Of a stretch of DNA of 64,000 bases, positions 21,040 to 26,818 are shown piece after piece (the stretch's first letter is position 1; every line of letters starts with the position of its first letter). The position numbers and the translations under genes are program-made. The notes under the pieces were generated by a model, which saw nothing but the letters and a program-made list of their open reading frames with translations, was not told where the DNA came from and did no database searches. Source of the DNA: Pseudoalteromonas shioyasakiensis (GTDB lineage Bacteria; Pseudomonadota; Gammaproteobacteria; Enterobacterales; Alteromonadaceae); the NCBI GenBank assembly GCA_013391845.1, contig CP058414.1, forward strand, positions 1,474,501 to 1,538,500, written 5' to 3'.

Positions 21040-21839
21040 TGAGTGATAAACATGCCATTGAGCAGTCGTTATCAATTATGGCCAAACTACGGGACCCAGA
21101 ATCTGGGTGCCCGTGGGATCTAAAACAAGACTTTAAATCGATAGTGCCGCATACCCTCGAAGAAGCTTACGAAGTAGCAGACTGCATTGAAAAAGGTGAA
21201 CTCACTGAGCTTAAAAGTGAGCTTGGCGATTTACTTTTTCAAATCATCTTTTATGCCCAACTTGCTAAAGAGCAGGGCTTATTTGATTTTGCAGATGTGG
21301 CAAATACACTAAACGATAAATTAATTCGTCGGCATCCGCATGTCTTTGCAAAGCAAAGTGAGCTGTCGGACGCAGAGCTTTCGGCGCAGTGGCAGGCTAT
21401 TAAAGCGCAAGAACGAGCAGAAAAATCTACTTCACCTCAAATGAGTCTTTGGCAGGATATTCCTGATGCGATGCCAGGTCTTTCAAAAGCTAAGAAAATT
21501 CAACAGCGCGTAGCAAGCCTAGGTTTTGATTGGCCAAGTTATCATGGGGCCCTCGATAAAGTCGCTGAAGAAGTCGACGAAGTAAAAGAAGCGCTGGCTC
21601 ATGACCCTTATTCAGAACACAGTGCAGAAGAGCTTGGCGATTTACTGTTTGCAACGGTAAATGTAGCCCGTCATATTAAACGCGATCCTGAGCAATTATT
21701 ACGAAGTGCCAATGCTAAATTCGCGTCACGCTTTGAAAAAGTGGCTGTCTACTTAGATGAACGTGGCCAAAGTTTAGAAACGGCCAGTCTCGAAGAAATG
21801 GACAACGCATGGGAAGCCATTAAAAAGCAGGCCAAGTGA
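21039..21839 (+). CDS. mazG: Nucleoside triphosphate pyrophosphohydrolase MazG
   Basis: House-cleaning NTP pyrophosphatase with two tandem MazG domains. The metal-binding ExxE-12-ExxD pattern appears in EEAYEVADCIEKGE with ELGDLLFQ, and again in EEVDEVKEA with ELGDLLFA. Length 266 against 263 in E. coli. Its ATG shares one base with the relA stop (TAATG). In E. coli the mazEF toxin-antitoxin pair sits between relA and mazG; here there is no room for it. Confidence 0.95.
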   Translation: MSDKHAIEQSLSIMAKLRDPESGCPWDLKQDFKSIVPHTLEEAYEVADCIEKGELTELKSELGDLLFQIIFYAQLAKEQGLFDFADVANTLNDKLIRRHPHVFAKQSELSDAELSAQWQAIKAQERAEKSTSPQMSLWQDIPDAMPGLSKAKKIQQRVASLGFDWPSYHGALDKVAEEVDEVKEALAHDPYSEHSAEELGDLLFATVNVARHIKRDPEQLLRSANAKFASRFEKVAVYLDERGQSLETASLEEMDNAWEAIKKQAK

Positions 21840-25087: not shown

Positions 25088-25759
25088 TTAAAGCTGAAAT
25101 TGCTGTTTTAGGATCTCGCCGGTGAAGCTGGTTTTTAGATAAAAACCGCGAGGCAAGGTTTGTATTATTTGACCATTCGGGCCAATTGCATCAGTCAGCG
25201 CTTTGCTATTGGCTGCTTTTGGCCTTATTTGCATAACATCGCCTAAGTGGCCCGAAATCTCATCCACTCGACCTAGAGCTATTAGCTCCATTTGTTCTTC
25301 CCAATCACGTTGTAAGAGTGCGTCTTGCTCGGCCGTTGGCTGCCACAAAAAGCCGCTGCCTATGGTGCGGTGAAAAGGTAGAATTTCGCGTTCGCCTAAA
25401 ATAGGTAACCATAAAACATGATTCAACTTTTTACGAACCGTACTTTGCTGCCATTTCATCCCAGTTACATTCAGTAGTGGTGTTACAGAAACAAACGTCG
25501 TTTCGAGTGGTTTGCCTTTAAATGAAATGGGCAGAGTTTTTAACTCAATTCCTAATTCTTCAAAATCAGGCGTTGGCTTTGAGCCTGCAGTTGCGCCAAG
25601 CACATATTCGATAAGTTGCCCGGTCCAGCCTTTTTCACGTAGCAAGTCTTCAGGTGTTTTAAAATGATATTGCTCGGCTAATTGCCCTAAAGTAAGGCCT
25701 GCTATAGCATCAACACGTTGCATTAATTCATTTATAGAAGCGGGTTTTATCGGTCGCAT
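25088..25759 (-). CDS. mutH: DNA mismatch repair endonuclease MutH
   Basis: Methyl-directed nicking enzyme that cuts the unmethylated strand at hemimethylated GATC. The catalytic Asp-(x)-Glu-x-Lys set is present in DFEELGIELKT, and the conserved Lys region in VRKKLNHVLWLP. The C-terminal QIRPKAANSKALTDAIGPNG and TLPRGFYLK are diagnostic. The frame runs 39 codons farther upstream, but ATG 25759 gives an N-terminus matching E. coli MutH (223 residues against 229). It is divergent from rppH across a DnaA-box cluster. Its presence implies Dam-directed repair. Confidence 0.94.
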   Translation of the reverse strand: MRPIKPASINELMQRVDAIAGLTLGQLAEQYHFKTPEDLLREKGWTGQLIEYVLGATAGSKPTPDFEELGIELKTLPISFKGKPLETTFVSVTPLLNVTGMKWQQSTVRKKLNHVLWLPILGEREILPFHRTIGSGFLWQPTAEQDALLQRDWEEQMELIALGRVDEISGHLGDVMQIRPKAANSKALTDAIGPNGQIIQTLPRGFYLKTSFTGEILKQQFQL

Positions 25760-25996
25760 AAGGCGTTTATTTGATTGTCTAATTAACCGGATCATGATAG
25801 CAAATGTGCGCCTTAGTGGATATCTTTGTGTTTGAGTGTTTTTTGCGCACGTTAAGTGTGAGCTAAAAATAACCAATTAATTTTTTGGATATCCAGGCCT
25901 AAGTATATGATATTTAATTTAATTATTGTTTTTGTGTGTTGTTTCTATTTCATTAATTAGACAGTTGTTTGTATAAATACAGATATATAAACATGT

Positions 25997-26180
25997 TTAT
26001 CCACAGTTTCTGTGGAGAAAGTGGATATTTTAACTGTGGATTGTGGATTTGTTTGCAATTTAGGCATGGTTTACAAAAGTTATGCACAAGCTGTGGGTAA
26101 GGTGATAAAAATGCGGTTGTAAATAGTTATTTTAATCAAATAGGGTATTTTTATAATAATTACATCGTAACGCCTTGATT
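25997..26180. promoter_or_regulatory. DnaA-box cluster with IHF site, DARS2-like
   Basis: DnaA-box-like 9-mers: TTATCCACA (25997-26005, perfect), inverted TTCTCCACA (26011-26019), inverted CAATCCACA (26035-26043), inverted AAATCCACA (26042-26050), TTATGCACA (26080-26088, fits TTATNCACA) and inverted TTACCCACA (26092-26100). The minus strand at 26168-26180 reads AATCAAGGCGTTA, a perfect match to the IHF consensus WATCARNNNNTTR. E. coli DARS2, which regenerates ATP-DnaA, occupies the same mutH-rppH gap and uses DnaA boxes plus IHF. The intergenic region is 25760-26299; outside this block I see only AT-rich DNA. Confidence 0.75.
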
Positions 26181-26299
26181 AAACATGTTTGTTAAAAAAT
26201 AAATTTTCAATCTAATTTAGGCTTAGGTGTAAAGTGTTTGCTGTATCGCAGGTTATGTGGAACAATCAATAAAAATCGACTTACAAATGAGGCACTAAG

Positions 26300-26818
26300 G
26301 TGATTGATGCCGAAGGTTTTCGTGCCAATGTCGGAATTGTAATTTGCAATAATCAGGGACAAGTATTTTGGGCTCGTCGCTATGGTCAACACTCTTGGCA
26401 ATTTCCCCAAGGTGGTGTTGATGACGGTGAAACAGCAGAGCAAACCATGTACAGAGAATTACACGAAGAAGTGGGCTTGCTTCCTGAAGACGTTGAGATC
26501 GTCGCAAGTTCTAAACATTGGTTACGCTATAAATTACCCAAGCGTTTAATTCGCAGAGACTCAAGTCCTGTGTGTATTGGGCAAAAACAAAAATGGTTTT
26601 TACTGAAACTTCGTTGTAAAGATGAAGATGTAAATTTACTTAAAACTCATCACCCTGAATTTGATGATTGGCGATGGGTGAGTTATTGGTATCCGGTTAG
26701 GCAAGTTGTTTCGTTTAAGCGCGATGTATATCGTAGAGTAATGAAAGAGTTTGCCCCGTTTGCAATGCCGTTTAATAAACGAGAGCAACACAAAGATCAT
26801 TGGCGACATAAACGATAA
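26300..26818 (+). CDS. rppH: RNA pyrophosphohydrolase RppH
   Basis: Nudix enzyme that removes pyrophosphate from mRNA 5' ends and so triggers RNase E decay. The Nudix box is complete: [22 protein letters not shown] at about residues 38-59. The flanking [12 protein letters not shown] and the C-terminal [20 protein letters not shown] segment are RppH-specific. The start is GTG (26300), giving [15 protein letters not shown] like other RppH proteins. 172 residues. It is followed 33 bases later by ptsP, the conserved order. Confidence 0.96.

Follow-up and report, generated by a model that had tools for sequence, protein, structure and literature searches.

DnaA-reactivating sites in Escherichia coli and its relatives

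The closest described counterparts of the locus reported here are two DnaA-reactivating sites of Escherichia coli: DARS2, located between mutH and rppH (ygdP), and DARS1, located between bioD and uvrB, directly upstream of the latter gene. In E. coli, ADP-DnaA molecules have been reported to assemble head to head on boxes termed I and II, from which ADP then leaves, with IHF and Fis driving that step (PMC8682772, PMC4245941). Read in the orientation of rppH, the E. coli DARS2 core consists of TTCTTCACA-3 bp-CTATCCACA-5 bp-GGTGAATAA, a stretch delimited by the primer arms that were designed for deletion of boxes I-III (PMC4585315); TTCTTCACA and CTATCCACA also correspond to the DARS2 double box of a separate report (PMC11317965). 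The E. coli DARS1 core reads TAATACACA-TGG-TTATCCACA-GGAAT-AGTGGATAA. Kasho 2014 further indicated that the IHF and Fis elements IBS1-2 and FBS2-3 are generally conserved, and proposed a Fis-dependent third DARS in E. coli, with a location yet to be identified.

The legend to Fig. 8 of Miyoshi 2021 (PMC8682772) already includes DARS2 homologs at the same locus in the related marine genera of Vibrio cholerae and Shewanella denitrificans, and conservation of DARS2 beyond enteric bacteria is therefore not new; Pseudoalteromonas is unlisted in that legend. A review places DARS elements in 'a number of Gammaproteobacteria' (PMC4451416), and the Vibrio crtS site, the trigger of chromosome 2 replication, has been likened by its investigators to DARS2 (PMC6139311). 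A search of the open literature returned no report of a DARS in Pseudoalteromonas, nor of a located third DARS.

A three-box core between mutH and rppH

The DNA analysed here (a stretch of 64 kb, referred to below as the window) is derived from Pseudoalteromonas, a genus with two chromosomes, and contains the gene order mutH (-), a 540-bp gap, rppH (+) and ptsP. The mutH reading frame (25088-25759, minus strand, with its start set at an inner ATG) forms the left border of the gap and its product displays 52% identity to E. coli MutH, encoded at the same place, while rppH (26300-26818, plus strand) forms the right border and encodes a protein with 67% identity to E. coli RppH. The order in E. 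coli is identical, with a gap of 684 bp as compared to 540 bp, within which a small gene, ygdT, is annotated. A preliminary description of this DNA had placed a DARS2-like cluster of DnaA boxes between these two genes, as in E. coli, and both the gene order and the protein identities bear that placement out. Upstream of rppH, the element TGTGGAACAATCA (26256-26268, plus strand) is conserved across Pseudoalteromonas gaps and is probably the -10 region of that gene. In two loci (L041 and L042) the gap has grown to 1070 and 1871 bp, with retention of the core and of its 190-bp distance to rppH. A search of phage records with RppH yielded nothing useful.

Each gap was scanned for the three-box layout against the DnaA box consensus TTWTNCACA, with mismatches summed over the boxes. 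The window core (25985-26019) reads ATATAAACA-TGT-TTATCCACA-GTTTC-TGTGGAGAA, and comprises box III (ATATAAACA, 25985-25993, plus strand, two mismatches), followed after 3 bp by box II in tandem (TTATCCACA, 25997-26005, plus strand, an exact consensus match) and after a further 5 bp by the inverted box I (TGTGGAGAA (TTCTCCACA), 26011-26019, minus strand, one mismatch). This box order, orientation and spacing are common to E. coli DARS2 and DARS1, and the core differs from that of E. coli DARS2 in its weaker box III. The inverted pair with a 5-base spacer, noted previously, is indeed found at 25997/26011; box III, which completes the core, was absent from that earlier account. Among 35 distinct aligned Pseudoalteromonas gaps, for which mean conservation over the gap is 0.55, box II is invariant (35/35), and column conservation reaches 0.97 for box I and 0.93 for box III.

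Additional boxes extend the cluster toward rppH. A weak box (AAATCCACA, 26042-26050, minus strand, two mismatches) lies at +45 from box II and is nearly invariant (conservation 1.00, rounded), and resembles the reverse box found approximately 45 bp past box II in E. coli; a reverse box with at most two mismatches occurs at +46 in 12 of 27 genus or family representatives. A further pair, comprising TTATGCACA (26080-26088, plus strand, exact match, conservation 0.99) and TGTGGGTAA (TTACCCACA) (26092-26100, minus strand, one mismatch, conservation 0.93), is conserved here and is extra relative to E. coli DARS2. The cluster as first described is thus confirmed, with two exact boxes (25997 and 26080), two with one mismatch (26011 and 26092) and more with two mismatches, which include those at 26020, 26035 and 26042, all on the minus strand. 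A degenerate ATATCCACT at 25815-25823 occupies, as judged by eye, a place roughly like that of the E. coli box V region, where low-affinity boxes overlap the Fis cluster; box V is not confidently recognisable in the Pseudoalteromonas gap.

Box geometry and its occurrence by chance

Box geometry, rather than box density, sets the mutH-rppH site apart. Box count or density was rejected as a test, because a 104-bp stretch at 21235 equally holds four boxes with at most one mismatch. When the three-box geometry was sought in the 64-kb window at up to six mismatches, three matches were found (with three, six and six mismatches), of which only that between mutH and rppH is low. At up to three mismatches the triple occurs at three places in the 3.63-Mb genome, as compared to none for a reversed control, and across 60 Pseudoalteromonas genomes there are 148 matches versus five for the control. 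The inverted pair, searched for genome-wide at up to one mismatch, gave four matches versus none for the reversed-pattern control; at up to two mismatches it gave six versus four, and is therefore weak evidence by itself. In first-order Markov shuffles of the window gap, the observed score was reached in 0 of 400 trials, as it was for the E. coli, Rheinheimera and Vibrio gaps that were tried, while one Shewanella gap was matched in 1 of 400. A core-spacing profile drawn from 14 representatives indicates the sharpness of the spacing and is no unbiased test, its loci having been preselected for the core; the unbiased weight is carried instead by the genome-wide triple scans and the gap and shuffle counts. 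Elsewhere in the window, positions 21235-21304 hold a second cluster of four DnaA-box-like 9-mers with at most one mismatch.

Distribution of the core among related genomes

Gaps between mutH and rppH were extracted from 80 loci, from further loci fetched from relatives, from the window and from E. coli, with the omission of four loci in which mutH was unmatched (L026, L034, L080 and L105) and of a copy of the window (L002); for five loci lacking an adjacent mutH (L119, L125, L136, L140 and L144), up to 1300 bp upstream of rppH was taken. Presence of the core was scored at up to four mismatches. By this measure, the core lies upstream of rppH in all 47 Pseudoalteromonas sequences (40 of them distinct; 46 gaps and one 1300-bp stretch), and a DARS2-type triple, as sorted by sequence pattern, is found in all 60 Pseudoalteromonas genomes; these counts are not fully independent, since some strains sit in two collections. 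The core is likewise present in every gap from Rheinheimera (6/6), Alishewanella (2/2), Shewanella (5/5), Vibrio (11/11), Aliivibrio (2/2) and Photobacterium (2/2), in the single representatives of Arsukibacterium, Alkalimonas, Enterovibrio, E. coli and a MAG, and in 12 of 23 further single-family representatives. The comparison with relatives that had been proposed as a check on the boxes finds the core retained by every Pseudoalteromonas sequence, as well as by the Rheinheimera, Shewanella, Vibrio and E. coli gaps; the lack of conservation among close relatives that would have spoken against the DARS2 reading was not observed.

In contrast, none of 33 gaps from Alteromonas, Glaciecola, Paraglaciecola, Aliiglaciecola, Salinimonas, Psychrosphaera, other Alteromonadaceae, Colwellia, Idiomarina, Pseudidiomarina and Aliidiomarina contains the core; 31 of these gaps are 65-217 bp in length, and two are 693 and 723 bp. 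The suggestion that this is an ancient, conserved site consequently holds insofar as the core is common to Vibrio, Shewanella and E. coli, and must be qualified for the several Alteromonadales lineages without it at this place. Its absence from all 33 of these gaps indicates that the site is not indispensable in the order.

Two core-like triples, separated by approximately 316-355 bp, occur within one mutH-rppH gap in ten loci (L084, L089, L090, L091, L092, L098, L110, L123, L128 and L133), and weakly in L001. The second, distal triple is found in E. coli (where it is weak), Shewanella and Photobacterium, and is absent from the Pseudoalteromonas gaps, that of the window included.

IHF-like and Fis-like sites

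IHF-like sites were sought with YAANNNNYTGATW at up to one mismatch. In several Shewanella loci with two cores the better-scoring core is the distal one, and offsets were therefore counted from box III of whichever core lies closer to rppH. The perfect IHF consensus previously noted beside the boxes (TAANNNNTTGATW) is present at 26168-26180, but it lies inside a lineage-specific stretch (26115-26228, limits approximate): 29 of the 35 aligned distinct gaps do not possess the columns of this site, and a consensus at the matching offset was found in the window and in L003-L005. It was rejected as the functional IHF site on account of the absence of that stretch from those 29 gaps. A better-conserved IHF-like site (TAAGTATATGATA, 25900-25912, plus strand, one mismatch) is located 85 bp before box III on the mutH side, where IBS1-2 lie in E. 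coli; across the 35 distinct Pseudoalteromonas gaps, 22 match it within one mismatch and 34 within two.

An IHF-like site in this one orientation, on the mutH side, recurs at set distances from the core. It is found at -87 in E. coli, at -86 to -84 in 30 of 47 Pseudoalteromonas sequences (with three more at -98 to -96), at -86 in three of six Rheinheimera loci, at -85 in Alkalimonas, and at -86 or -87 in two further families. Approximately one helical turn further out, at -96 or -97, it is found in five of 11 Vibrio loci, both Photobacterium loci, the one Enterovibrio locus, two of five Shewanella loci and two further families. The other Vibrio loci carry it at -87 (one) or at -81/-82 (two) or display none (three), and no such site with at most one mismatch was found near -85 or -97 in, for example, three of six Rheinheimera, both Alishewanella, both Aliivibrio and three of five Shewanella loci. 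Among 27 genus or family representatives, five sites fall in the bin from -87 to -85, where the rate of the scan predicts approximately 0.25 for a bin of 3 bp, and four fall in the bin from -98 to -96. At the sequence level, then, the Pseudoalteromonas site (-85) lies at nearly the distance and phase seen in E. coli (-87), with one site here and two in E. coli. In that species the scan picks up a pair, at -87 and -71, with exactly 3 bp between its members, as between the footprinted IBS1 and IBS2 of DARS2 (PMC4245941).

Mutational studies of E. coli DARS2 found that moving IBS1-2 outward by 10 bp was tolerated better than moving them by 5 bp, and that just partial activity remained when these sites were moved toward the core by 5 or 10 bp (PMC4245941). 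A natural displacement of the IHF-like site by one turn fits the greater tolerance of the 10-bp outward shift.

With respect to Fis, the corresponding gene is present (C1:3500250-3500537, 66% identity). A scan with the Fis consensus produced ten one-mismatch matches spread over the whole gap, with no clear counterpart of the FBS2-3 elements that lie beyond the IHF site in E. coli, and the best offset shared among representatives excludes the window; the Fis cluster of E. coli DARS2 is not confidently recognisable in the Pseudoalteromonas gap.

Assignment of the locus and alternative explanations

The preliminary description had regarded the locus as DARS2-like, and that view is favoured by the position between the two genes, by the three-box core and by its conservation. 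The non-coding site in the mutH-rppH gap is very probably orthologous to DARS2 and would serve in Pseudoalteromonas to reactivate DnaA. It shares with its E. coli counterpart the same gene gap, the core with its 3- and 5-bp spacers, the IHF-like site on the mutH side, the reverse box past box II and a position in the middle of the chromosome arm. By analogy to the biochemistry established in E. coli, which is the source of what is proposed here regarding binding, nucleotide exchange and timing, ADP-DnaA would bind boxes I-III, and the pair of DnaA molecules occupying boxes I and II, which are inverted, would meet head to head; IHF, acting at the conserved site approximately 85 bp away, would bend the DNA and, probably with Fis, remodel the complex such that DnaA releases ADP. 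The freed apo-DnaA would then take up ATP, and the level of ATP-DnaA would rise before the next initiation at oriC.

An operator, on which DnaA represses or activates mutH, rppH or both with nucleotide exchange not being the job of the site, would equally account for boxes placed between two divergent genes and for the conserved promoter-like element before rppH, and DnaA is reported to regulate other genes, with box pairs 3 bp apart as preferred binding places (PMC11317965). That explanation is nevertheless unlikely, in that DARS1-type sites flanked by unrelated genes have the same core geometry, IHF-like sites keep recurring at particular distances from the core, the counterpart locus in E. 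coli is a proven DARS (PMC4245941), and lineages without the core still have mutH and rppH side by side. A site resembling datA, which would soak up DnaA or, with IHF, promote hydrolysis of DnaA-bound ATP, might also be expected to combine several high-affinity boxes with an IHF-like site; it is a decidedly improbable reading, given synteny with DARS2 and given that head-to-head boxes I and II with box III in tandem constitute the DARS arrangement (a judgement made by box layout and gene context). A chance grouping of boxes in AT-rich DNA between genes, which the equal box density at 21235 and the excess of inverted pairs hardly above control at two mismatches might suggest, has a negligible probability when set against a triple score unmatched in the shuffles and conserved both genus-wide and in other families.

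Putative further DARS-type loci in the order

The other two triples in the genome of the window, both located outside the window itself and termed here sites C and D, are also conserved; the names of the genes that surround them are tentative assignments by similarity. Site C (G000:C1:1873325-1873359, equivalent to L149:2026-2060, minus strand) has four tRNA-Asn genes and one MATE gene as neighbours. A recognised site C triple is present in 59 of 60 genus members, and in the one remaining genome (G016) an element of similar but weaker form was seen (L204); of 13 further Pseudoalteromonas loci that were inspected, 12 have tRNA-Asn within 800 bp. The corresponding core of other families is flanked by uvrB and tRNA-Asn genes (L223-L225 and L266) or follows the order uvrB-MATE-core-tRNA-Asn (L280 and L291), and in L214 tRNA-Asn lies between uvrB and the core. 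Because this uvrB/tRNA-Asn setting recurs, and because E. coli DARS1 adjoins uvrB, site C is most likely the Pseudoalteromonas ortholog of DARS1, with a core geometry like that of E. coli DARS1 and different neighbouring genes.

Site D (G000:C1:2038801-2038835, equivalent to L150:2002-2036, minus strand) is flanked by pta and by an ACT gene resembling gcvR, and has counterparts in Alteromonas, Psychrosphaera, Rheinheimera, Shewanella and Idiomarina-type genomes. When the gcvR-like locus was read in 30 genus members, the core (at up to five mismatches) was present in 26, often with a poor box III (up to four mismatches), and absent in four; in G002, G016, G020 and G033 a triple adjoins the gcvR-like gene by coordinates, such that site D occurs in at least 30 of 60 genus genomes. 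In the alignments of both sites, 11 of 29 loci were unmatched by the patterns and left out, and two rows assigned to site D (L201 and L204) look C-type by sequence. On sequence grounds, site D is a likely third DARS ('DARS3') in Pseudoalteromonas and its relatives. A search of 7 kb around yfbV-ackA-pta in E. coli found no third core (the best candidate having nine mismatches).

The search was also extended to 22 genomes in which the mutH-rppH gap carries no core (one of them, Gayadomonas, showed no mutH next to rppH). In all 22 a DARS1-type core lies close to a MATE gene or an AspC-like gene, accompanied by tRNA-Asn in 16 of the 17 examined for tRNAs, and 13 of the 22 possess a core at the arsC/Crr-like/gcvR-like/yfbV/pta place (in G140, only arsC was recognised). 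Relatives of Alteromonas, Idiomarina and Psychrosphaera would thus be missing DARS2 and keep DARS1, with the putative 'DARS3' in those 13, while one Rheinheimera genome (G146) and one Shewanella genome (G147) have all three cores. Triple matches numbered 69 versus eight for the control in 28 genomes that include these 22, and 140 versus 14 for the control in 60 genomes of the order (nine of which had none); in view of those control matches, single weak triples can be chance. A similar triple (TTATCCCWAAAGTTATCCACYG...) was also observed between genes named by eye as oxidoreductase-like and ABC-permease-like in a Vibrio locus (L287:2001-2035) and in another family (L290:2001-2035), the latter copy being carried by contig 2 of that genome, which may be a second chromosome.

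The three loci also keep similar positions on the chromosome. With distance from the origin beside dnaA expressed in units of half a chromosome, DARS2 in five Pseudoalteromonas genomes lies at 0.48-0.53, DARS1 at 0.71-0.76 and site D at 0.82-0.88; oriC was placed beside dnaA, where GATC-rich DNA with DnaA boxes in the window's genome, and matching sequence in the other four, suggest its presence. The corresponding values for E. coli are 0.41 of the arm for DARS2 and 0.66 for DARS1, from the minutes given in a figure legend (PMC4585315).

Implications

The order therefore appears, by a modest balance of probability, to contain three syntenic DARS loci: DARS2 between mutH and rppH, DARS1 at tRNA-Asn with MATE, AspC-like or uvrB genes, and 'DARS3' at pta, gcvR-like, Crr-like and arsC genes or yfbV. 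Different lineages would keep different subsets of what may be a modular set, with distance from oriC held roughly constant. The element in the window is an ordinary but clean and well-defined candidate DARS2 ortholog, and the order-wide picture around it is the more surprising.

Its assignment would bring Pseudoalteromonas within the range of a replication-timing site studied in depth in E. coli, and provides a sharp and searchable definition of such sites, comprising three boxes at fixed spacing and an IHF-like site placed close to -86 or more distant by one helical turn. The natural shifts of that site by approximately 10 bp match the phase dependence of the E. coli mutants, and the relatives without DARS2 may be regarded as natural deletion experiments. 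Finally, the conserved triple beside pta in marine relatives, at a place where E. coli has none, is a concrete candidate, in those organisms, for a site of the kind that Kasho 2014 proposed as a third DARS in E. coli.
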